Assembly (NCBI RefSeq): GCF_947496385.1
Contig: NZ_CANMCP010000005.1
Coordinates: 62,001-126,000 of the forward strand
Length of the DNA stretch: 64,000 bases
Source of the DNA: an uncultured Croceicoccus sp.
Lineage (GTDB): Bacteria > Pseudomonadota > Alphaproteobacteria > Sphingomonadales > Sphingomonadaceae
Direction: 5' to 3'
Shown: one piece after another, positions 30,339 through 43,552 of the stretch
Layout of the letters: each line of letters starts with the position of its first letter
Position numbering within the stretch: the first letter of the stretch is position 1
Translations under genes and position numbers: made by a program
Notes under the pieces: generated by a model
Databases searched by the model: none
The model's input: the letters and a program-made list of their open reading frames with translations, nothing else
Told to the model about the DNA's origin: nothing

Positions 30339-30797
30339 TCAATCGCGCCTTGCGCCGATCTCGCGCGCGCGGTCGAACAGCTTGCCCAGTGTGCGCAGAA
30401 GCGTCTCGCGCTCGCTCGCCGACAGCACCTGGAGCAGCGACGCCTCCATCTCCAGCGCGAGCGGCATCACCGCGTCGAAGATCTCGGTGCCCTCCTCCGT
30501 CAGTTCGAGGAGATGGGACCGGCCGTCGTTCGCATTGGGGCTGCGCTTGATGAGCGCACGGTCGCACAACACCTTGCACGCGCGATTGACCGCGACCTTG
30601 TCCATGAACGTCGCTGCGACCAGATCGCGCTGCGTCAACGCGCCCGCATCGCCCAGAATCGCCATGACCCGCCATTCGGATACCCTGAGTCCGAAGCGTC
30701 GACGATATTCGCGCGCAATATTGTCGCTGACCATGTTGGAGGTGACGGACAAGCGATAGGGCAGAAAGTCGGCAAGGCGGGATGAAAGCTGTTTCAT
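30339..30797 (-). CDS. MarR-family transcriptional regulator
   Basis: 152 residues with the MarR winged helix: LRVSEWRVMAILGDAGALTQRDLV (helix-turn-helix), then MDKVAVNRACKVLCDRALIKR (recognition helix) and the wing SPNANDGRSHLLELTEEG. These proteins bind short palindromes as dimers and often respond to small ligands. The gene is divergent from the first TonB-dependent receptor across a 428-bp gap, so both it and the receptor are candidate targets. Confidence 0.9.
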   Translation of the reverse strand: MKQLSSRLADFLPYRLSVTSNMVSDNIAREYRRRFGLRVSEWRVMAILGDAGALTQRDLVAATFMDKVAVNRACKVLCDRALIKRSPNANDGRSHLLELTEEGTEIFDAVMPLALEMEASLLQVLSASERETLLRTLGKLFDRAREIGARRD

Positions 30798-31225
30798 AGC
30801 GTTTCCCTATCGCGCAATCGCCGCTTCGCCAAGCTTCGCCTTGCCATTTACCTTAGTATATTACGCGAATGACCGCCTGTGGCGTATTTAAATATCCGTG
30901 GAACGCCCCTGAACCCGACTTGTCTTTCGCAATGGGCATCGCGCCTGATGATCGAGCGACTTTACGCGCAAAACGCCATTTGCCGCCTTGCACGACGATT
31001 CCACGCAGATGCCCGGCACCCGTCGCGATTGCACGTTGACGGCGCAAAAACGGGATACTGTTGCCCGATAACAACATGGCCAACTTAATCGTTGAATCTG
31101 TGACTTAATTAAATTGCAAAAAAATGACGGTCAGGGGAGCCTCTGAACTCTCCTTTAACGGCGTGAGCCGAGGGGCACGGATTCCTTGGGGGCATCCGAT
31201 GTATGACATTAGAGGGACTGAACAC
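30798..31225. promoter_or_regulatory. Long AT-richer intergenic region, marR-type gene / receptor
   Basis: 428 bp without a credible gene. It is visibly AT-richer than its surroundings and holds two perfect AT palindromes, TATTTAAATA at 30885-30894 (about 90 bp from the marR start) and TTAATTAA at 31105-31112 (about 115 bp from the receptor start). A purine-rich GAGGG sits 9-13 bases before the receptor ATG. I cannot place -35/-10 boxes with confidence. An open frame at 30853-31083 on the minus strand has no protein-like features. Confidence 0.45.
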
Positions 31226-34200
31226 ATGAACGCTTGGACTTTCCGCAAGCAGGCGCTTGCCACCGGTTCGGCGCTGCGCGCGATTGCGCTGATCGGCGCC
31301 GGATCCGCGGCGATCGGCGTGGCCACCGCGCCCGCCCATGCGCAGGATTTCACGCGCGGCTCGATCACCGGCACCGTCGTCGACGAGGCAGGCAACGCGG
31401 TGCAGGGCGCCAATGTCACGCTCACCTCGAACGAGCAGGGCTTCAACAACACCGCGGTCACCGATGCCGATGGTTCGTTCCGGATCAACGGCCTGCCGAC
31501 CGGTTCCTACTCGATCACCGTCACGTCGCAGGGTGCCGTCGTCGTGCGCGATACCGGCGTAGGCGTCGTCGCCGGCCAGAACAGCTCCTATCGCTACATC
31601 GCGGGTGAAAGCACGCTGGGCGAAGAAGTCGCGGGCGGCGAAGGTATCGTCGTCGTTGGCCGCCGTATCCAGGTGAACGATTTTGCCGCGACGCAGACGG
31701 GCGTCACCCTCGACGTCGAAGACCTCGCGCAGACCGTCCCCGTCGGCCGCGATCAGACCTCTCTCATCCTGCTTGCGCCGGGCACCACGCCGGGCGACGA
31801 AGGCTTTGGCAACCTAGCCTCGATCAACGGCGCGACCGTTGCCGAGAACCAGTATTACATCAACGGCCTCAACGTCACCGATTTCCGCAACCTGCTCGGC
31901 AGCTCGATCGTTCCGTTCGAGTTCTACCGTACCACCGACGTCAAGACCGGCGGCTATCAGGCGGAATACGGCCGTGCGCTGGGCGGCGTGATCTCCTCGA
32001 TCACGAAATCCGGCTCCAACGAATTCGCCGGCGGCGCCGTTGTCGTCTTCGAACCGCAGGGCCTGCGCAGCCAGACGCCCAACACTTTTGTCGATGCGGA
32101 TTCCGATCCCGAGACCGAAGGCGACATCATCGGCAATCTGAACTCGCGCGATTACGACCAGTCGCTCGACGGCAACTTCTACCTGTCCGGTCCGATCATC
32201 AAGGATCGCCTGTTCTTCTACGGCCTTTACAACGCGCGCTATCGCGAAAATGCCGACACGTCGTTCTCGGGCGCACGCACGACGACGATCCGCGACGACA
32301 GCCCGTTCTTCGGCGGCAAGCTCGACTTCGTGATCGCCGACGGCCATCGTCTCGAAGGCACCTATTTCCGCGACAAGGTGACGCGCGACATCATCTACAC
32401 CGGCTTCGACACCGAAAACATGGTCGATGGCGAAGTGCAGGGCGGCCTGAGGCAGGAATTCGGCGGCGACAACTTCATCGGTACCTACTCTGGTCAATTT
32501 ACCGACTGGCTGTCGATTTCCGGCTCCTATGGTCAGTACAATGACAATACGACGCAGGTCGCCAGCCCGAACAACGCCTATATCCTCAGCCGGATCGGCA
32601 GCACGCGTGTCGTAGGCGGCACGAGCACCGGGCGAAACAACGACGAGAGCAAGCGCGAATTCTATCGTGCCGACGCCGACATCTATGTCGACTTCTTTGG
32701 CGAGCACCACATCCGCGGCGGTTTCGATCTTGAAAAGCTGTCGGCTGGCGAGAACACGACCTATAACGGTACGGGCTATCGCTATGACGTGCGGTCCAAC
32801 CTCGCGATCCGCTGGTACTACCTCAACGAAGGCGGGTTCAACACCGATCAGCGCGCCTTCTATCTTCAGGACTCGTGGTCGCTGCTCGACAATCGCGTGA
32901 ACCTGCAGCTCGGCGTTCGCAACGACAGCTTCAAGAACTACGGCGTGACGGGTGAGAAGTTCTACGATTCGGGCGATCTTTGGGCACCGCGCCTGGGCGC
33001 ATCGTTCGACGTGTTCGGCGACGGCGCGACCAAGCTGAACGTGTTCTATGGTCAGTATTACCTGCCGATCGCCACGAACACGAACATCCGCCTCGGCGGT
33101 GCCGAGACCTACTATCAGCAGGTCGATTTCTACGGCACCTCGCAGGACCTGAACGGCGATGGCATTCCCGATCAGTATACGCTCGACGAAAATGGCGATA
33201 TCGTCGGCTTCGACGCGAACTTCGGCGGGGGCGTCTGCCCCGAGGGCACGCCCAATGCAGGCGAAGTGTGTAACAACGTCTATAGCGACGGCACCGCCGG
33301 GCCGACCGACACGCTGGTGTCGCAGACCCTGAAGCCGAGCCGGACCGACGAATATATCATCGGCCTGGAGCACCGGATCGGCGATTGGCGCGCGTCCATC
33401 AACTACACTCGTCGCCGCCTGGCCTCGACACTGGAAGACGCCGCGATCGATGCTGCGGTCAATTCCTATTGCGCCGACAACGGTATCGCGGGCTGCGAAG
33501 ATGTATTCACTGGCTACCACCAGTACGTGCTCCTCAATCCGGGCGAAGACGTGACCGTGCGCCTCGACGGCGACTGCTCCATCGAAGGGCAGTGCGATGT
33601 CGTGACCCTCGATGCGGCCTCGCTCGGCTATCCCGAAGCGGTGCGCGATTACGACGCGGTTCAGTTCGAACTGGAGAAGGCGTATAACGGCCTCTACGGT
33701 TTCCGGTTCAACTACACCTACATGGACCTTCGCGGTAACTTCGAAGGTGCGGTGAAGTCGGACAACAACCAGACCGACGCCAGCCTGACGCAGGATTTCG
33801 ACCAGCCGGGCTTCCTCGAAGGTGCGACGGGCCCCCTTGCCAATGGCCGCAAGCACACCTTCAAGCTCTACGGCAATGTCAGCCCGACCGAATGGCTCGA
33901 CCTTGGCGCGAACATGACCGTGTCCAGCCCGCGCAAGTTCAGCTGTATCGGTAACTACTTCGATTCGAACAATTTCGCGGCAGGTTACGGTGCGGCATCC
34001 TACTATTGTACCCAGGATGGCGTCGGCGGCACCCCGGTCGAAAATTCGGGTGGCACGACGTCCTATCTCGTCCCCCGCGGTAGCGCGTTCGAATCCGAAT
34101 GGAGCAAGAATGTCGATCTCAGCATCACGTTCAAGCCGTTCGCCAGCAACCGGAACATCCAGTTCCAGACCGCGGTCTTCAACGTGTTCAACTGGAAGCA

Positions 34201-34345
34201 GGAAACCGACTACAACGAATTCGGCGATCTCGATCTCGACTATACGCCGAACAGCAACCCGAACTATGGCCGCGTGACCGCCTATCAGGCGCCGCGTGCG
34301 GTCCGGTTCACCATGTTCATGCGTTTCGGAGGCGACGCGAAATAA
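31226..34345 (+). CDS. TonB-dependent receptor with N-terminal carboxypeptidase-regulatory-like domain
   Basis: 1039 residues. A signal peptide ends at APAHAQ (about residue 40). Next is a carboxypeptidase regulatory-like (Ig-like) domain, about 42-125, with GSITGTVVDEAGNAVQGANV and GLPTGSYSITV; then a plug domain (SINGATVAENQYYINGLNVTD, GGYQAEYGRALGGVISSITK), and a 22-strand barrel ending RFTMFMRFGGDAK. This is the Oar-like layout. It should take up a ligand at the outer membrane using TonB energy; the ligand is unknown. ATG 31226 is chosen because its first 29 residues align position for position with the leader of the second receptor. Confidence 0.93.
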   Translation: MNAWTFRKQALATGSALRAIALIGAGSAAIGVATAPAHAQDFTRGSITGTVVDEAGNAVQGANVTLTSNEQGFNNTAVTDADGSFRINGLPTGSYSITVTSQGAVVVRDTGVGVVAGQNSSYRYIAGESTLGEEVAGGEGIVVVGRRIQVNDFAATQTGVTLDVEDLAQTVPVGRDQTSLILLAPGTTPGDEGFGNLASINGATVAENQYYINGLNVTDFRNLLGSSIVPFEFYRTTDVKTGGYQAEYGRALGGVISSITKSGSNEFAGGAVVVFEPQGLRSQTPNTFVDADSDPETEGDIIGNLNSRDYDQSLDGNFYLSGPIIKDRLFFYGLYNARYRENADTSFSGARTTTIRDDSPFFGGKLDFVIADGHRLEGTYFRDKVTRDIIYTGFDTENMVDGEVQGGLRQEFGGDNFIGTYSGQFTDWLSISGSYGQYNDNTTQVASPNNAYILSRIGSTRVVGGTSTGRNNDESKREFYRADADIYVDFFGEHHIRGGFDLEKLSAGENTTYNGTGYRYDVRSNLAIRWYYLNEGGFNTDQRAFYLQDSWSLLDNRVNLQLGVRNDSFKNYGVTGEKFYDSGDLWAPRLGASFDVFGDGATKLNVFYGQYYLPIATNTNIRLGGAETYYQQVDFYGTSQDLNGDGIPDQYTLDENGDIVGFDANFGGGVCPEGTPNAGEVCNNVYSDGTAGPTDTLVSQTLKPSRTDEYIIGLEHRIGDWRASINYTRRRLASTLEDAAIDAAVNSYCADNGIAGCEDVFTGYHQYVLLNPGEDVTVRLDGDCSIEGQCDVVTLDAASLGYPEAVRDYDAVQFELEKAYNGLYGFRFNYTYMDLRGNFEGAVKSDNNQTDASLTQDFDQPGFLEGATGPLANGRKHTFKLYGNVSPTEWLDLGANMTVSSPRKFSCIGNYFDSNNFAAGYGAASYYCTQDGVGGTPVENSGGTTSYLVPRGSAFESEWSKNVDLSITFKPFASNRNIQFQTAVFNVFNWKQETDYNEFGDLDLDYTPNSNPNYGRVTAYQAPRAVRFTMFMRFGGDAK

Positions 34346-34380
34346 GCGTTTCCACCAAAGTGCCGGACACCGGACAATGG

Positions 34381-34408
34381 AAAGGGGCGGCTTCGGCTGC
34401 CCCTTTTT
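34381..34408 (+). terminator. Rho-independent terminator after the first receptor
   Basis: AAAGGGGC pairs with GCCCCTTTT, with an inner GC/TTCG-type loop, followed by T5. It lies 36 bp after the receptor stop and 56 bp before the sulfotransferase start, so the latter probably has its own promoter or depends on readthrough. Confidence 0.85.
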
Positions 34409-34464
34409 ATTGACCCCGCCTTGCGCGCCGGCCCATCATTCCCGTTCGCCATGGACCATGCCCG

Positions 34465-37389
34465 ATGCCATCCCCCGAAGTGACAACCGCCGCCGCCGCG
34501 TTTCAGGCCGCCAATCGCGCCGACGACCGCCCGGCGCTGCTCGCCGCGGCGCGTGTGCTCGTGGAGAAGCGCGCACCGATCGGGCCCCAATGGAATTTCG
34601 CGGCGCAGGCGATCATGCGCTGCGGCGATCTCGATCTTGCCCTGCGCGCACTCGATTTGTGGCAGGATCAGGCCGCCCCGCCCCATGCCGCTGCGCATGA
34701 GAAAGCGGTTCTCCTCGCGCAATCGGGGCGTGAGGACGACGCGCTTGCCCTTGTCGCGCAGCTTCCCGAAACGCACCCCACACCCGTTGCCAATGCGTAT
34801 CTGCGCGGATCCATCGCGGCCAATCTGGGGCGCCGGGATGAGGCGGAGCTTCATTATCGCCGTGCCGTGGCCGCCTTGCCCGTCTCGGGTCGGTCGTGGG
34901 TCGGGCTGGCGCAGCTCGACCGGCTCACCCCTGCGGACCGGGCCGCCATCCGCGCCCGGCTCGACGCCCCCGACGCAAGCCGGATCGAAACCGTCGACCG
35001 TGCAGGCCTGCACCATGCGCTCGCCATCGCCGCCGATCGGGAGCAGGACCACGCGAAGGCCTTCAACCATTTCGACTCGGCAACCCGGATTCAGGCCGAG
35101 CTATACCGCTATACGGCCCGAGACGACGAGAATTCCGTGCGAACCGCCCGTATGTGGCACGCACCCGATATCGCCCGCCATGCCATCGCCGGCCCCGCGC
35201 CGGAGCGGCAGCCGATTTTCGTTACCGGCCTCGCGCGAAGCGGCACAACGCTCGTTCAACAATTGCTCGCCGCGCATTCGGAGGTCGATGGCGGCCGGGA
35301 GCTTGGCCTTACCGTGCCGGTGGAGGTGATGACGGGCGGGTTCGCCCCGGCGGATTTCGACCGTTATCGCGCCGGCGGCGGCACGATGGAGGCGTTGCGC
35401 GACACCTATCTCCGCTTCGCTGGTCAACGCATTGCCGGCACCGGGCGCTTCGTCGACAAGACGCTCAACGCCAGCCGGGCGATCGGCCCGCTCGCGGCGA
35501 TGTTTCCCGACGCGCCTTTCGTCTGGTTGCGCCGCGATCCACTCGACAATGCGTGGTCCATCTATCGCGCGTGGTTTTCGAACAATGTGCTATCCGGATG
35601 GTCGCTTGCCGATATCGCGCACCACATGATGGTGGAGGATCGCATGCATGCCCACTGGGCCGATGTGCTCGGCGACCGGATGCTGACCGTGCCGTATGCC
35701 GATCTTGTCGAGCATCCGGAGGAATGGACGCGCCGGATCACCAGCTTTTGCGGACTGGAGTTCGAGCCGGGCCAGATGGACTTTCACCGCCGCGCTGGCG
35801 CGGTCAGCACGGCCAGCGCCCTGCAGGTGCGCGAACCCGTCAATCGCAAGGGTATCGGCGCGTCGGCTCCCTATCGCCGCTGGCTCGACCCGTTCATGCG
35901 CGTGTATCGCGCCGCACCCGTCGATACGCCGCCGGACCCCGCGACGCTGGTGGCCGGATTTAAGGACGGTCTCGCGCGGCAGGATATCCTTGCGATCAAC
36001 CACGCGGCGAAGGGCCTGATCGTGGCGAAGGCACCGATGGGCAATTCCTGGCGCGCCATTGCGCAGGCCTTGTTGCGCAATGGCGAGAAGACCGCCGCGC
36101 GGGACGCGATGCGCCTGCTGGAGGAGAACGGCGGCAATACGCGTGCCTTGCGGATCGAGCGGGCCGCATTCGTCGCCCGCTCCGGATTGCCCGAGGACGC
36201 GCGACAGCTTCTGTCCGAAGGCACCGGCAATGCGCAGGACGCCTCCGCCTCGCTGCAATTCCTCCACGGGTCGATCGCCACCAATCTGGGCGAGGCGGAG
36301 GTGGCCGCCGAACATTTCCGCCGCGCGGCAGGGATGCAGCCGGCATCGGGGCAATGCTGGCTCGGGCTCGCGATGACGGGCGCCGCCGACGATGCCGACC
36401 ATCGGGCGATGGAGGATGCGTCCGCCGCGCTCGCCCATGCGCCGCCGGCCGAACGCTCGGCATGGCACTACGCGCTCGGCCACATGCGCCATCTTGCGGG
36501 TGAGCATGCGCGCGCATTCGATGCCTTTGAAAAGGGTGCGGCCCATATGGCACCGCTGCGCCCGTTCGACCGGGAGGCCGATCGCGCCGATGCCCGCGCG
36601 GCGGTGGATGGCTGGGCCGAGGGGCTGCGCGACACGCGCGGGGCGGATCGGCGCAAACCGGTGCGCGACCCCGTGTTCGTGACGGGCCTGCCGCGGTCCG
36701 GCTCGACACTGGTGGAGCAGATCCTCGCCGCCCATTCCACGGTCGCCGGTGGGGGCGAGCTCGGCCTGCTTCGCCTGCTTGAACAACGGATCGGGGGCAA
36801 GTCGCACGGCGCCTTCGCCCGCTGGGAACGCGATGGCGGCCGGGCCGACGATCTTGTCGCGCATTACGATCATCTCCTGAACGAAAGCGTGACGCGGGAC
36901 GGGCGCGTCATCGAAAAGACGTTGTCGACCTCCCGCCATCTCGGGCTCGTGGCGACATTGTTGCCCGATGCGCCGGTCGTGTGGGTGCGTCGCGATCCGC
37001 TCGACAATGCGTGGTCAGCCTATCGCACATGGTTTGTCGAGGGCGTCGCGTGGAGCTGGAACCAAGCCGATATCGCGGCGCACATGGCGTGCGAGGATGC
37101 GCTCCACGATCGCTGGCAAGACGTTCTGGGCGACAGGATGCTGACCATTGCATACGAAACGCTGGTCGACGATCCCACCACGCAGATCGGCCGTATCCTC
37201 GATCATTGCGGGCTTACGCGGGAGGCTGCGTGCTTTGCCCCGCACGAAACGAAACGCAGCGTCATCACCGCCAGCGCGATGCAGGTGCGTGCGCCCATCA
37301 ACCGCCGCGGCATCGGCGTCGCCGACCCCTATCGCGACCGACTCGCCCCGTTCGAAGCGGCCCGGTTCGGCAACGACACGCTTTTGTGA
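34465..37389 (+). CDS. Double-module TPR-sulfotransferase (internal tandem duplication)
   Basis: 974 residues built of two copies of a TPR + PAPS-dependent sulfotransferase unit. Copy 1: TPR-like helices to ~240, the 5'-phosphosulfate loop at ~252-272 (FVTGLARSGTTLVQQLLAAH) and the 3'-phosphate motif at ~353 (VWLRRDPLDNAWSIYR). Copy 2: TPR-like region ~490-725, loop at ~738 (FVTGLPRSGSTLVEQILAAH), 3' motif at ~839 (VWVRRDPLDNAWSAYR). Both motifs recur with an offset of exactly 486 residues, and the TPR parts also align (RAPIGPQWNFAAQAI with KAPMGNSWRAIAQAL). The fold resembles protein-tyrosine and carbohydrate sulfotransferases. No signal peptide, so presumably cytoplasmic. The acceptor is unknown; it stands between two TonB-dependent receptors. 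Confidence 0.9.
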   Translation: MPSPEVTTAAAAFQAANRADDRPALLAAARVLVEKRAPIGPQWNFAAQAIMRCGDLDLALRALDLWQDQAAPPHAAAHEKAVLLAQSGREDDALALVAQLPETHPTPVANAYLRGSIAANLGRRDEAELHYRRAVAALPVSGRSWVGLAQLDRLTPADRAAIRARLDAPDASRIETVDRAGLHHALAIAADREQDHAKAFNHFDSATRIQAELYRYTARDDENSVRTARMWHAPDIARHAIAGPAPERQPIFVTGLARSGTTLVQQLLAAHSEVDGGRELGLTVPVEVMTGGFAPADFDRYRAGGGTMEALRDTYLRFAGQRIAGTGRFVDKTLNASRAIGPLAAMFPDAPFVWLRRDPLDNAWSIYRAWFSNNVLSGWSLADIAHHMMVEDRMHAHWADVLGDRMLTVPYADLVEHPEEWTRRITSFCGLEFEPGQMDFHRRAGAVSTASALQVREPVNRKGIGASAPYRRWLDPFMRVYRAAPVDTPPDPATLVAGFKDGLARQDILAINHAAKGLIVAKAPMGNSWRAIAQALLRNGEKTAARDAMRLLEENGGNTRALRIERAAFVARSGLPEDARQLLSEGTGNAQDASASLQFLHGSIATNLGEAEVAAEHFRRAAGMQPASGQCWLGLAMTGAADDADHRAMEDASAALAHAPPAERSAWHYALGHMRHLAGEHARAFDAFEKGAAHMAPLRPFDREADRADARAAVDGWAEGLRDTRGADRRKPVRDPVFVTGLPRSGSTLVEQILAAHSTVAGGGELGLLRLLEQRIGGKSHGAFARWERDGGRADDLVAHYDHLLNESVTRDGRVIEKTLSTSRHLGLVATLLPDAPVVWVRRDPLDNAWSAYRTWFVEGVAWSWNQADIAAHMACEDALHDRWQDVLGDRMLTIAYETLVDDPTTQIGRILDHCGLTREAACFAPHETKRSVITASAMQVRAPINRRGIGVADPYRDRLAPFEAARFGNDTLL

Positions 37390-37397
37390 ATTTTTGT

Positions 37398-37415
37398 GAA
37401 ACCTTTTTCGGTTTC
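37398..37415 (+). repeat. Hairpin just after the sulfotransferase gene
   Basis: GAAACC-TTTTTC-GGTTTC begins 9 bp past the stop codon, just after a direct repeat TTTTGTGAA / TTTTTGTGAA that includes the stop. There is no following T-run, so termination is uncertain. The rest of the 262-bp gap up to the second receptor holds no other gene. Confidence 0.4.
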
Positions 37416-37651
37416 GCACTCACTCCCAAGGCGATGCCGCGCATCTGTATCAGAAATGTCACAGATTTTCGCGAAAGGTTTCCGAAGATACCAATAGGTT
37501 TTGCATAACGCCGGCGAGTTTGAGAGTGGCGCCCCCCTGAAAGTTTTGCCCGTCCGGTGCGAGCGAACCACAGCGGTTTCGTTCGGCAGCGCGCCGCCGT
37601 CACCGCGTGACGTGCGGATCGGACGGGCGACCAGCAAAGGGAATGGATTCC

Positions 37652-40600
37652 ATGAAAACCTCTTTTCGAAACAAGCGCTTGCTCGCGGCCAGCTCGGCCC
37701 TGCGTGCGGTTGCCCTGATCGGCGCCGGCAGCGCCGCAGCCCTGTCGGTTCCCGCCTTCGCACAGGCAGGCGACACCGATGGCGTTGTCACCGAGGAGCA
37801 GGTCAGCGCGCCGATCGTGGTGACCGGCTCGCGCATCCGGCGCGCCAATCGCGACACGATCGAGCCTGCGATCGTCGTCGATTCGCAGCAGATCGAGGAA
37901 CGCGGCCAGACCAGCGTCGGCGAAGCACTCGAGGATCTTCCCGCATTCGGCCCCCCGGCGAACAACCCCGTCGGTGGCCAGGGCGGCAGCTTCGGTTCGG
38001 GCCAGACCTTCATCAACTTCTTCGGCCTGGGTTCGCAGCGCACGCTGACGCTGCTCAACAGCCGCCGCTATGTCAGCTCGAACACCGCGTCGATCTTCGG
38101 CCCGGTCGCGGCCGGTTCGCAGGTCGACCTCAACACCATTCCCACGCTGATGGTCGACCGGCTTGAGACGATCGCGGTCGGCGGCGCGCCGATCTACGGC
38201 GCCGATGCCATCGCCGGCACCGTGAACGTCATCCTCAAAGACCGCTTCGAAGGTGTTCGCTTCGACGCGCAGATGGGCATTGCCGAAGAGGGCGACGCCC
38301 GCGAATACCGCCTCGGCGCGCTCACCGGCACGAGCTTTGGCGACGGGCGCGGCAACATTGTTGCGGCCTTCGAATATAACCGCACCGACGGCCTGACCTA
38401 TCGCGATCGTGACCGGACCGCGCGCGGCCTGTTCTATGCGGGTCCGACCGATCCCGATTCGCCTTTCGATAACGTGTTGATCGAAGATCGTCGCATTCCT
38501 GCACTTAGCGAATTCGGCGCTCCGAGCTTTGCTGATTCCGTGCCCGGATTTGGCGGCGAAATCACCGACGCTTCCGGCAACGTGCTCGTCTTCAATGCTA
38601 ATGGCGATCTCGTTCCCCTTGATTTTGGTATGCCTTACCGCGGGATCAACTCTTCGGGCGGCAACGGCTTCAGCCTCGTCGACGTGTCGAACCTGCGTTC
38701 GCCGGTCGAACGTTACCTCGGCGCGATTCAGGGCACCTATGATCTGACCGACAACGTCACCGCATTCTTCGAAGGGCAATACGCCAATTCGAAGGGCACC
38801 GAATTGCGTGCGCAGCCGGTGTACAACACCGCCCTGTTCGATGCCGGTGGCGCGCCCGACGGCAATCTGATCATCCCGATCGACAATCCGTTCCTGTCGG
38901 ACGAGGCGCGCGCCACCATCGCCGCACAGCTTCCCGAAGGTCAGGATTTCTTCTATCTCGGCCGTGCCAACACCGACCTCATTTCCGGTCGCGGTTCGTC
39001 GACGGTGGAAGTGTACCGCTTCGCCGGCGGCCTGCGCGGCGATTTCACGCTGGGCGAACGCGACCTGAACTGGGAAGTGTCCGGCCTGTACGGTCGTTCG
39101 AAGACCGACGGCCGCAGCCGCGAGCTGGTGCAGCAGAACTTCGAAAACGCGCTCGCCGGCTGCCCCGCCGGTGCCGCATCCGCGCCCGTCGACACGGTGA
39201 GCGCGACCTGCGTGCCGTTCAACCCGTTCGGCAACGAGAATTCGCAGGCCGTGGCGGATTACATCACGACCATCGCGAACCCCGTCGCCCTGAACGAACA
39301 GTATGACTTCATCGCCACGGTCGGCGGCGACCTGTTCAACATCTGGAGCGGTCCGGTCGCGTTCTCGCTCGGTTACGAGCACCGCGACGAATCCTCGGAT
39401 TTCGATCCGGGCGAATTCTTCTTCGGTCAGGTGAACCCCGAAGATCCGGACGGCCCCCGCGACCAGTTCGGCCGTTCGATCCCGATCGATGCCGTGTCCG
39501 GTTCGTACAACACGGACGAGGTGTTCGGCGAGGTGCTCGTGCCGCTCGTCACCGCGGCGATGGAAGTCCCGTTCGCCAATCTGATCGAGGTGAAGGGTGC
39601 GGCGCGTTACGTCGACAATTCGTTGACCGGCGGTGATCTCACCTGGACCGCAGGCGGCCGCTGGCAGCCGGTTCGCGACATCACGTTCCGCGGCAATTTC
39701 ACGCGTTCGATCCGCTCGCCCGCGATTACCGAGCTGTTCAACCCGACCAGCGCGATCTTCACGACCGCAGACGATCCGTGCGATGCGCGCTTCATCAATG
39801 CGGGTCCGAACCCGACCCAGCGTGCGGCAAACTGTGCAGCGGCGGGGATTCCGGCGAACTTCACCTCCAATATCGTCGATTTCACGACGCGCGGTTCGCT
39901 TTCGGGCAACACCAATCTGGAGAATGAAAAGGCGGACAGCTGGACCGTGGGCTTCGTGTTCACCCCGACCTTCGCCCGCGGGCTCACGCTCTCGGCCGAC
40001 TGGGTGGACATCTCGCTCGAAGGCGCGATTCAGAGCGTCGATGCCGAGCAGACGCTCGAGGCATGCTATGACGCGACGAGCTTCCCGTCGGATGCTTGCG
40101 GCCGGATCGACCGCGACGCCGCCGGTCAGGTGGAATTCGTGCGCACCGGCTATCTCAACGTCGCAAGCTACGACTACAAGGGTCTGGTGAGCGAAGTGCG
40201 CTGGGTGCAGCCGACCCCGTTCCTCGGCGCGGACAGCCGCGTGACGGTGCGTGGCTCGTACCAGTATATCGATCAGCTCGAAACGCGGGTCGGTTCCGGC
40301 GATCTGGAAACGCTGCGTGGCGGTATCGGCTATTCGAAGCATCAGGGCACGCTGGGCCTGAGCTACGACAACGATGCGTTCGGCATCTTCGGTCAGGGCC
40401 GTTACATCGGCGAGGCCGTGGTCGATCCCGACGCTGCGCCCGAAACGTACGAATTCTTCGAGCGTGACGATGTCATCTTCGTGGATGCCGGCATCAGCTT
40501 CAAGGCTGGCGACGACATGGTGCTGCGCCTCATCGGGGAGAATATCTTCGACACCAGCGCGCCGTTCCCCTCGCCCGCCGGTGGTGGTCTCGTGACCTAT

Positions 40601-40654
40601 TTCGATGGGATCATGGGCCGCTACTTCAAGGTGGCTGCGACCTTCGGCTTCTGA
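37652..40654 (+). CDS. TonB-dependent receptor (plug and barrel, no regulatory-like domain)
   Basis: 1000 residues. A signal peptide ends at VPAFAQ (about 38). A TonB-box-like region leads into APIVVTGSRIRRANRD; the plug carries TLTLLNSRRYVSS and GAPIYGADAIAGTVNVILK, and the barrel ends MGRYFKVAATFGF with a terminal Phe. In the barrel, ITFRGNFTRSIRSPAITELFNP is the usual TonB-receptor motif. The ligand is unknown. ATG 37652 is preceded by AAAGGGA at good spacing and puts the leader in register with the first receptor: residues 15-29 read SALRAVALIGAGSAA here and SALRAIALIGAGSAA there. Confidence 0.93.
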   Translation: MKTSFRNKRLLAASSALRAVALIGAGSAAALSVPAFAQAGDTDGVVTEEQVSAPIVVTGSRIRRANRDTIEPAIVVDSQQIEERGQTSVGEALEDLPAFGPPANNPVGGQGGSFGSGQTFINFFGLGSQRTLTLLNSRRYVSSNTASIFGPVAAGSQVDLNTIPTLMVDRLETIAVGGAPIYGADAIAGTVNVILKDRFEGVRFDAQMGIAEEGDAREYRLGALTGTSFGDGRGNIVAAFEYNRTDGLTYRDRDRTARGLFYAGPTDPDSPFDNVLIEDRRIPALSEFGAPSFADSVPGFGGEITDASGNVLVFNANGDLVPLDFGMPYRGINSSGGNGFSLVDVSNLRSPVERYLGAIQGTYDLTDNVTAFFEGQYANSKGTELRAQPVYNTALFDAGGAPDGNLIIPIDNPFLSDEARATIAAQLPEGQDFFYLGRANTDLISGRGSSTVEVYRFAGGLRGDFTLGERDLNWEVSGLYGRSKTDGRSRELVQQNFENALAGCPAGAASAPVDTVSATCVPFNPFGNENSQAVADYITTIANPVALNEQYDFIATVGGDLFNIWSGPVAFSLGYEHRDESSDFDPGEFFFGQVNPEDPDGPRDQFGRSIPIDAVSGSYNTDEVFGEVLVPLVTAAMEVPFANLIEVKGAARYVDNSLTGGDLTWTAGGRWQPVRDITFRGNFTRSIRSPAITELFNPTSAIFTTADDPCDARFINAGPNPTQRAANCAAAGIPANFTSNIVDFTTRGSLSGNTNLENEKADSWTVGFVFTPTFARGLTLSADWVDISLEGAIQSVDAEQTLEACYDATSFPSDACGRIDRDAAGQVEFVRTGYLNVASYDYKGLVSEVRWVQPTPFLGADSRVTVRGSYQYIDQLETRVGSGDLETLRGGIGYSKHQGTLGLSYDNDAFGIFGQGRYIGEAVVDPDAAPETYEFFERDDVIFVDAGISFKAGDDMVLRLIGENIFDTSAPFPSPAGGGLVTYFDGIMGRYFKVAATFGF

Positions 40655-40678
40655 TCCTTCAAAAGCCTGCGCATAAGG

Positions 40679-40710
40679 AAACGGGCCCGGCCATAAGCCG
40701 GGCCCGTTTT
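40679..40710 (+). terminator. Strong terminator between second receptor and clpB
   Basis: A perfect 13-bp stem (AAACGGGCCCGGC / GCCGGGCCCGTTT) with a 5-base loop, ending in T4. It can serve the receptor and, weakly, the convergent clpB. Confidence 0.9.
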
Positions 40711-40732
40711 CGTATCGGGCTCTCTTTTCGAA

Positions 40733-43312
40733 TTACGCGACGCGCATCTGCAATTCGCCGTCGCCCTCGTCGATATGGACGGTGCTGCCATCGGCAATCT
40801 CGCCGCGCAGCAGCCGGTCGGCGAGCGGATCCTGCAAATGCCGCTGTACCGCGCGTTTCAACGGGCGCGCGCCATAGACCGGATCGTAACCGACCCGTCC
40901 GAGCCAGCGTTTCGCCGCATCGGTGAGGTCGAGCGTGATCTTGCGATCCTTGAGCAATTTCTGCACCCGGCCCACCTGAATATCGACGATCGGCGCCATG
41001 TGCTCCTCGGCCAGACGGTGGAACAGGATGATCTCGTCCAGCCGGTTCAGGAATTCGGGACGGAAATGCCCACGCACCACGTCCATCACCTGCGGTTCGA
41101 CATCGGCGACGGTCTGCCCGTCCTCCATGTTCGCGAGATACTGGCTGCCGAGGTTGGAGGTGAGGATGATCAGCGTATTGCTGAAATCCACCTGCCGCCC
41201 CTGCCCATCGGTCAGCCGCCCGTCGTCGAGCACCTGCAGCAGCACGTTGAACACGTCGGCGTGCGCCTTTTCCACCTCGTCGAACAGCACAACCTGATAC
41301 GGGCGGCGGCGCACCGCCTCGGTCAGGACGCCGCCCTCGTCATAGCCGACATAGCCCGGCGGCGCCCCGATCAGGCGGGACACGGCGTGCTTCTCCATGA
41401 ACTCGCTCATGTCGATGCGGACCATCGCATTGTCGTCGTCGAACAGGAACCCGGCCAGCGCCTTCGTCAATTCGGTCTTCCCGACGCCGGTGGGCCCGAG
41501 GAAGAGGAAGCTGCCGAGCGGACGATTCGGATCCTGAAGCCCGGCACGGGCGCGCCGCACCGCCTTCGACACCGCCTCGACCGCCTGGCTCTGGCCGATG
41601 ACCCGCTTGCCCAGCGCGCCTTCCATGTTGAGCAGCTTTTCGCGCTCGCCTTCCATCATCCGGTCGACGGGCACGCCGGTCCAGCGGCTGACGACGCCGG
41701 CGATGTCGTCCTCCGTCACCACCTCGCGCAGCATCGCGTTTTCGGACTGCGCCTTGGCCTCTTCCAATTGCCGGTCGAGTTCGGGGATGCGGCCGTAGGA
41801 CAGCTCGCCCGCCTTCGCGAGATCGCCGGCCCGCTGCGCCTGTTCCAGCTCGATCCGCGCGGCGTCAAGCTGCTCCTTGATGCGGCCCTCCGCGGCGATC
41901 TTGTCGCGCTCGTTCTGCCAGCGGGTGGTCAGTTCGCTCGACTGCTGCTCGAGATTGGCGAGTTCCTCGCGCAGTGCCTTGAGTCGGTCCTGCGACGCGG
42001 CATCGGTTTCGCGTTGGAGCGCCTGCTCCTCGATCTTGAGCTGGATGATGCGGCGGTCGAGGTTCTCAATCTCCTCGGGCTTGCTCTCCACCTCCATGCG
42101 GATGCGGCTCGCCGCCTCGTCCATGAGGTCGATCGCCTTGTCGGGGAGGAAACGATCTGCGATATAGCGGTTCGACAGCGTCGCCGCCGCCACCAGCGCA
42201 TTGTCCGAAATGGTGACGCCGTGGTGCAGCTCGTATTTCTCCTTGAGCCCGCGCAGGATCGACACCGTGTCCTCCACCGTGGGTTCGTCGACGAAAACCG
42301 GCTGAAACCGGCGCTGGAGCGCGGCATCCTTCTCGACATATTTCTGATATTCGTCGAGCGTCGTCGCGCCGATGCAGTGCAGCTCACCGCGGGCCAGCGC
42401 GGGTTTCAGGAGGTTGCCCGCATCCATCGCCCCTTCCGACTTGCCCGCCCCGATGAGCGTGTGCATCTCGTCGATGAACAGGATGATGTGGCCCTCCGCG
42501 CCCTTCACCTCGTCGAGCACGGCTTTCAACCGCTCCTCGAACTCGCCGCGATATTTCGCACCCGCGATCAGGCTGCCCATGTCGAGCGACATCAGCGTGC
42601 GGTCCTTCAGGCTGTCGGGCACATCGCCATTCGCGATGCGCAGCGCGAGGCCTTCGGCAATGGCGGTCTTGCCGGTGCCGGGTTCGCCGATCAGGACGGG
42701 ATTGTTCTTCGTCCGGCGGGCAAGGATCTGAACAGTGCGGCGGATTTCCTCATCCCGGCCGATCACGGGGTCGAGCTTGCCGGCACGCGCCGCCTCGGTC
42801 AGGTCGCGGGCGTATTTCTTCATTGCGTCGTAGCTTTCCTCGGCGCTCGCGCTGTCGGCGGTGCGGCCGCCGGTCGCCTCCTGGATTGCGGCCTCCAGCG
42901 CCTGCGCATCGACATTCGCGGATTTCAGCGCCTGCCCCGCCGCATTCGATTGCGACAATGCGAGCGCCTGCAACACGCGTTGCACCGGCACGAAGCTGTC
43001 GCCGGCCTTCTGGCTGAGCTGCTCCGCCTGATCGAGGACGCGAACCGCATCATTGTCCAGCCCCGGCGTCGCCTGCGCGCCGCTTCCCGACACGGCGGCG
43101 ATTTTTGCCAACGCCGCATCGGCCTGCGCTTCGGCCTGCTTCGCATTGCCGCCGGCGCGCTGAATCAACTGCGCCGCCATGCCCTCGTTATCTTCGAGCA
43201 AGGCCTTCAAAATATGGGCGGGCGAGATCCGCTGATGATTGTTGCGGATCGCCACGGTCTGCGCCGCCTGCAGAAAGCCTTTGGCGCGATCGGTAAATTT
43301 TTCGAGATTCAT
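40733..43312 (-). CDS. clpB: Disaggregase chaperone ClpB
   Basis: 859 residues. Order of parts: Clp-N repeats ([26 protein letters not shown]), AAA1 with Walker [14 protein letters not shown], the long coiled-coil M domain (about 400-520), AAA2 with [16 protein letters not shown] and [17 protein letters not shown], and a C-terminal domain. It rescues aggregated proteins with DnaK. ATG 43312 gives the canonical MNLEKF start. A CTTGAAA element about 90 bp upstream resembles a heat-shock -35 box, but I cannot find a matching -10. Confidence 0.97.
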
Positions 43313-43344
43313 CACACAATCCTTGTCGTTACGGACAGGAGATA

Positions 43345-43364
43345 GTGTTGCATTTATACAACAC
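43345..43364. repeat. Inverted repeat in the clpB leader
   Basis: GTGTTG-CATTTATA-CAACAC, a perfect 6-bp inverted repeat around an AT-rich 8-base centre, ends 33 bp upstream of the clpB start and lies in the divergent region shared with the M16 peptidase gene. It could be an operator or a leader hairpin. Confidence 0.5.
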
Positions 43365-43552
43365 AAGGGCCTTGCCTGCGCGCGTTGAAGATTTTGTCGC
43401 GACCCGCCGATTTCAAGGGGCGGTATCTACCGCGAACGGACCGATCTTCGCCTTCGGGACGGCGTTCTAAGGCTGGCGTTTCCGGTTGAAACTGATACCG
43501 AATAGCGCGCTCGCGCCGTCTGGCGCCACGATCGATTGAGGGGGATTTATCC

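Follow-up and report, generated by a model that had tools for sequence, protein, structure and literature searches.

Animal protein-tyrosine sulfotransferases (TPSTs) carry a Golgi membrane anchor, according to the available text of PMC9372746, and TPST2 is a functional dimer (PMC6637879, accessible portion). Three elements are described there as essential for enzymes of the TPST type: an arginine of the 5' phosphosulfate loop, a catalytic glutamate or histidine base, and a serine of the 3' motif. RaxST, the tyrosylprotein sulfotransferase of Xanthomonas, is a bacterial enzyme that acts in the cytoplasm before secretion and has the same essential arginine, Glu/His base and serine. It belongs to a raxX-raxST-raxA-raxB neighbourhood, and no TPR arm is mentioned for it in the available portions of the two papers (PMC6637879, PMC9372746). 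Bacterial TPST genes are sparsely distributed and often adjoin genes for extracytoplasmic proteins, an unpublished observation reported in the accessible part of PMC9372746, so a general link of bacterial TPSTs to exported proteins is already in print. As far as the available text of the open-licence papers searched goes, no mention of receptor-linked or double TPR-sulfotransferases was found.

The window, i.e. the whole stretch of 64,000 nucleotides of Croceicoccus DNA analysed here, contains a single frame of 974 codons without stop at 34465-37389 on the plus strand. The ORF, Pfam, a genus search and the alignment of both halves identify its product as a fused, two-module TPR-sulfotransferase of 974 aa. 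The original prediction of two complete modules in this ORF is borne out: Sulfotransfer_3 (PF13469) matches the whole protein twice (253.7 bits versus a curated cut-off of 27, 2.8e-75) and also the isolated halves (first, 135.6 bits, 4e-39; second, 120.6 bits, 1.5e-34), and the halves align with each other over 477 columns at 40% identity and 273 bits, whereas 50 shuffled versions of the second half gave no more than 21.9 bits. The first module (residues 1-486; 34465..35922, plus strand) has TPR-like helices at about residues 4-239 and a sulfotransferase fold at about 249-442. The second module (residues 487-974; 35923..37386, plus strand) has TPR-like helices and a sulfotransferase domain at about 736-924. 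The junction between them was placed by alignments at about residues 476-499 (35890..35961, plus strand); another fusion, the 996-codon gene of genome G147 (a draft assembly of about 180 contigs), is longer by about 30 residues at this point, and the Croceicoccus fusions show no clear extra linker. With respect to the TPR regions, TPR_8 passes its Pfam cut-off for the whole protein (26.9 versus 25.7 bits) with no single stretch passing, and the isolated halves score below the TPR cut-offs; TPR-like helix pairs precede the sulfotransferase domains in both predicted models, that of the first module and that of the full-length protein. The single-module Sulfotransfer_3 TPR-sulfotransferases of the same GTDB family share this architecture per module but have one module each; in the close clade, most of their called ORFs measure 473-517 aa, and for more distant clades the range is 520-711 aa.

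The nucleotide-binding motifs repeat at an offset of 486 residues between modules. The pairs R258/R744, E279/E765, K332/K818, R357/R843 and S365/S851 confirm this offset and the motif coordinates that had been predicted. R258, G260, T262, E279, K332 and R357 are invariant in 70/70 rows of an alignment that includes both window halves; therefore, the second half has counterparts of all six, in agreement with the claim that both copies keep the key active-site residues. S365 is conserved in 67/70 rows. In pairwise alignments, E279 and E765 stand opposite the second glutamate of the TPST GEET motif, which we take to be the catalytic base E99 of TPST2. The arginine, a glutamate between the motifs and the serine, listed as essential in the available portion of PMC6637879, are found in both halves, and these are also the residues of RaxST. 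Judged by these residues, both heads are likely to be active.

The closest solved relatives by sequence of both sulfotransferase domains are protein-tyrosine sulfotransferases. The predicted model of the first module (pLDDT 86.1, pTM 0.84, from an alignment of 10 rows, the second half among them) shows a TPST-like fold: its 13 top Foldseek matches are TPST1, TPST2 and a tick TPST (PDB 3ap1, 5wrj, 8w5z), with TMt values of 0.56-0.66. The likeness consists in the arginine of the 5' loop, the glutamate aligned at the catalytic place and the serine of the 3' motif; identity in the Foldseek rows is 21-26%. However, the matched animal chains lack a TPR arm, whereas the window protein combines two heads with TPR arms in one chain. 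Lower in the same list are O-GlcNAc transferase and SPINDLY, in which a TPR superhelix also stands ahead of a protein-modifying transferase; their catalytic domain is unrelated and the likeness is one of analogy only. The second half was modelled solely as part of the full-length protein (pLDDT 73.8, pTM 0.49), and this model does not fix the mutual packing of the modules. Its structure matches are TPR proteins at ranks 1-7 and TPSTs from rank 8. The underlying alignment has little depth in the first half, and all invariant columns of the rows from viral contigs fall on the second. A fused pair would be compatible with the dimeric state of TPSTs, but the full-length model has a pTM of 0.49.

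The explanation that we prefer, at roughly even confidence, is a receptor-linked enzyme produced at low dose in which two active protein sulfotransferases of the TPST type are covalently joined as a heterodimer. A TPR-sulfotransferase gene behind a TonB-receptor-like gene would have been duplicated in tandem, and the two copies would have diverged for long before the boundary between them was lost. The product would be a covalent heterodimer of two PAPS-dependent TPST-like sulfotransferases in which the TPR arm of each module may hold a protein partner. The likeliest substrate would be an exported protein, either the adjacent receptor or some other, that receives its sulfate in the cytoplasm prior to export, and the enzyme gene would be read at low dose through the terminator behind the more abundant receptor message. 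The same genome also encodes an APS kinase domain, which could supply PAPS.

In contrast to raxST, the window gene adjoins receptor genes. Neither raxX nor raxA nor raxB is among its identified neighbours, which are a receptor on each side and then ClpB, MarR and pilus-type genes. Directly upstream is a gene for an outer-membrane protein of 1073 aa (31124..34345, plus strand), presumably Oar-like. We call it TonB-receptor-like rather than a plain TonB-dependent receptor because its own Pfam matches are of the CarboxypepD_reg type only, NCBIfam gives a weak TonB-hemin match far below the cut-off (26 versus 316.85 bits), and nothing relevant was matched in PDB. This protein is 59-68% identical to those of G124, G147, G116, G253, G082 and G206 and 38-50% identical to four further relatives (alignment A4). 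Among six relatives tested with Pfam, Plug scores above the cut-off in two, OMP_b-brl_4 in three, and either or both in four. A second TonB-dependent receptor, with Plug and barrel, lies downstream of the fusion (37607..40654, plus strand). It adjoins the fusion in three Croceicoccus genomes, whereas a different gene follows downstream in the other five pair loci; locus L055 has a 36% relative of it on the far side of its first receptor.

The association with the upstream receptor is constant in loci with a pair of enzyme genes or a fusion, since the receptor-like gene is directly upstream on the same strand in 8/8. In a wider enzyme clade of 53 rows, where loci were chosen by similarity to the window protein and not randomly, a receptor of this kind is the immediate neighbour in 22/45 loci (in 15 it is upstream and on the same strand, in 7 it is convergent); the remaining 23, of which two lie at contig ends, lack one in that position. 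For more distant TPR-sulfotransferases, whose loci were chosen in the same way, a Plug-domain receptor adjoins in 14 of the 15 neighbour-tested loci, the tested neighbour in L105 being MutS. The receptor and first-module trees agree in part: both contain the grouping of L052 with L056 and place L053 near Croceicoccus, while G147 is placed elsewhere. A single clade of the eight pair-locus receptors was rejected (p 0.026) because G206 nests inside. Proteins whose neighbouring genes become fused often act together, and this suggests that paired TPR-sulfotransferases form a functional unit with the receptor encoded ahead of them.

If true, receptor sulfation would add a new means of changing uptake through the outer membrane. 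In its most specific form, a two-headed enzyme with conserved read-through dosing would sulfate tyrosines of its own TonB-type outer-membrane receptor before export by means of two specialised active sites, the single chain having been reached twice by convergence; we consider this form quite improbable. The pair-locus receptors share four conserved tyrosines with acidic surroundings. Each of them also occurs in 7-15 of 16 other receptors, and none of the four is particular to pair loci, so they were discarded as a mark of these receptors.

Both heads of the same fusion could instead sulfate a small molecule or glycan, for instance a receptor-linked ligand or a surface polymer, and not a protein. 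Sulfotransfer_3 is a broad family, in line with such a substrate; unrelated enzymes, such as LigAB dioxygenases, DUF72 or a CMAS methyltransferase, are encoded in the vicinity of some single relatives, and the nodulation protein NoeE gives a weak match (42.6 bits versus a cut-off of 500). However, the closest solved relatives are the protein-tyrosine enzymes mentioned above, a glutamate standing where the catalytic residue aligns, the fold list includes the TPR-carrying protein modifiers of the O-GlcNAc transferase type, and sister enzymes adjoin PEP-CTERM proteins in 6/6 loci tested. A small-molecule or glycan substrate has a minor but appreciable probability. The sister enzymes concerned are single-module proteins of one subclade whose genes are divergent from that of a PEP-CTERM protein of 404-430 aa (L059 9012-10262, L061, L072, L073, L078 and L080), some of the neighbours giving weak metallopeptidase matches; two more rows of this subclade lie at contig ends. 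Sister enzyme and PEP-CTERM protein are possibly an enzyme-substrate pair.

Returning to the preferred heterodimer, its expression at low dose is suggested by the sequence between receptor and enzyme genes, where folding and junction comparison reveal a terminator-like hairpin with a T-run (34384..34411, plus strand). The window hairpin, which an automatic terminator scan did not pick up, folds at -27.8 kcal/mol (z -7.7). GC-rich hairpins with a T-run, starting 24-39 bases past the receptor stop, are present in all 15 same-strand receptor-enzyme junctions (the window, L050-L058, L063, L066, L067, L071 and L079), a count that is not blind as the rule was set after the hairpins had been viewed. 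The same rule, applied to the controls, detected none in four gaps between paired enzyme genes, none in 14 stretches after the last enzyme gene, and 23 in 2800 random windows of 120 bases. Hairpins also stand behind 7/7 convergent receptors and 5/10 receptors that precede more distant enzymes; therefore, the hairpin belongs to the receptor gene. In G116 the T-run extends to the called enzyme start, which leaves little room for a promoter there. A weak promoter-like match (9/12) follows the window hairpin at 34410..34439 (plus strand), one found versus 0.3 expected, and may be due to chance. From this arrangement we infer that the enzyme is probably made at low dose through terminator read-through.

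The origin of the fusion can be followed in relatives in which the modules are separate. In G253, G124, G082 and G116, the counterpart of the first half is a separate gene followed directly by a second TPR-sulfotransferase gene on the same strand. The gap between both genes is 69 bases in G253 and 37 bases in G124, the genes of G116 overlap by ATGA, and those of G082 overlap, as called, by 74 bases with uncertain starts. The first half of the window protein is 58% identical to the first gene of G124 and the second half 48% identical to a single gene of G206, while the halves are 40% identical to each other. Because both halves resemble a separate gene of another genome more than they resemble each other, the ORF is not an internal copy of one gene, and a recent internal duplication is ruled out. 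The fusion of two adjacent, long-diverged paralogous TPST-like genes in a receptor-linked cassette is real. The 'fused dimer' of the original prediction fits insofar as a pair has been joined; it is, however, not one unit repeated but a fusion of adjacent diverged paralogues. Neither the receptor linkage nor the hairpin formed part of that prediction.

The genus and family searches listed over 80 matches; the regions around 60 of these were fetched, and 11 further regions were added. L088, whose enzyme has an in-frame stop, and L099 and L101, without called enzyme ORF, were omitted from the trees, and L091_1, L095, L096, L098, L102, L103, L104, L105, L107, L108, L109, L110, L111 and L114 also from the 56-row tree. 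L088 (G330:C1:1025584-1027071) is an enzyme relative with one in-frame TAA and the same kind of receptor in its locus.

First modules form one clade of eight rows, three of them from near-identical Croceicoccus, with support of 100/100 in the 70-row tree and in the 56-row tree alike. In the latter, this clade is nested in a 21-row group (98/98) of receptor-linked enzymes. Its members are exclusively the first of a pair (8/8), fused in four genomes and side by side in four. Searching 397 family genomes with the first half (best four candidates per genome scored), six genomes reached at least 480 bits, all with paired or fused genes, and the window genome and G002 complete the 8/8; the next match is G147's own second module, at 373 bits. 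A member of the first-module clade without partner was not found in the 397 family and 14 genus genomes searched. Second modules, by comparison, were rejected as one clade (AU p 1.8e-5), and the second gene of G253 is equally near the first and second halves of the window protein (40% each). The partner would thus have been exchanged or reshuffled, which weakens the idea of a fixed heterodimer. In our reading of these trees, one tandem copy took on a specialised role while its partner was replaced or reshuffled. G206 (L058 7715-12449) has a single second-type enzyme and no first module, and groups with Croceicoccus both by receptor (100/99) and by enzyme (97/94), which reads as an apparent loss. 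Since its receptor stands with one second-type enzyme, the pair is not indispensable.

In the trees, the fusions of Croceicoccus and G147 do not group together. Constraining them to one fused clade was rejected for the receptor (AU p 4.8e-6) and for receptor plus first module (p 1.9e-4) but not for single enzyme modules (p 0.076 for the first, 0.17 for the second), all these values being optimistic, as the constrained groups were chosen after viewing the trees. Two separate fusions are favoured, the second of them represented by one draft assembly, and an ancestral fusion that was split several times afterwards is possible. The fusion could also be neutral, the stop between neighbouring genes having been lost without functional consequence. 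Few changes would suffice for this, because the genes of G116 overlap and those of G124 are separated by 37 bases only. However, three Croceicoccus genomes have kept the fusion at dS of about 0.11-0.35, and there were apparently two independent origins; a neutral origin of this kind has a minor but appreciable probability.

Purifying selection acts on both halves. Three comparisons by the Nei-Gojobori method gave dN/dS values of 0.17-0.19 in the first half and of 0.20-0.25 in the second; for the 46-codon junction it is 0.29 and 0.33, and 1.1 in one comparison with very few changes. This selection, together with the presence in both heads of the six residues that are invariant in 70/70 rows, argues against one head being a pseudoenzyme, i.e. 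a non-catalytic structural or substrate-holding partner whose fusion would fix a one-to-one ratio. Such a role would be in keeping with the slightly higher dN/dS of the second half and with two substitutions: three Croceicoccus and G124 have Ala instead of the near-invariant Pro257 in the 5' loop of their first modules (4/70 rows), and the place of Asp331 is occupied by Glu in the second module of the window, uniquely among 70 rows. We regard a pseudoenzyme head as improbable and retain two active heads in the preferred reading.

The original prediction that the double form is unusual was correct. A full-length double ORF is present in 3/14 Croceicoccus genomes (E 1e-100 or better), namely the window's own, G009 (95% identical, single-contig assembly) and G002 (89% identical), the latter two also with 974 codons; a Croceicoccus hydrothermalis protein is 88% identical to the fused enzyme. 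Among the Sulfotransfer_3 matches listed for 60 order genomes, the window frame alone has two matches, and the next longest frame is of 821 codons. At class level, 3/385 genomes reach E 1e-60, the window's own included, with the best two candidates per genome scored, as also in the family search of 397 genomes. Double modules were conceivable as the rule in related genomes, but pairs, single genes and few fusions were found, and the searches of genus, family and order rule out the double form as an ordinary arrangement; it is uncommon. A sequencing or assembly error that joined two genes has practically no probability, since the uninterrupted 974-codon frame stands in three concordant assemblies, one of them single-contig, and nothing speaking for an error was found in Croceicoccus, the one draft of about 180 contigs behind the G147 fusion being the sole point in its favour.

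Among Croceicoccus genomes, the region that corresponds to window positions 30339-43366, beside ClpB and, where the far end is in view, bounded there by MarR, varies as an island (L069, L110-L119), and other Croceicoccus genomes examined have differing sets of receptors and sulfotransferases on the ClpB side. Clusters of Sulfotransfer_3 matches also occur in the order genome G798, with at least five, at least three and at least four matches on contigs C56, C71 and C91, respectively.
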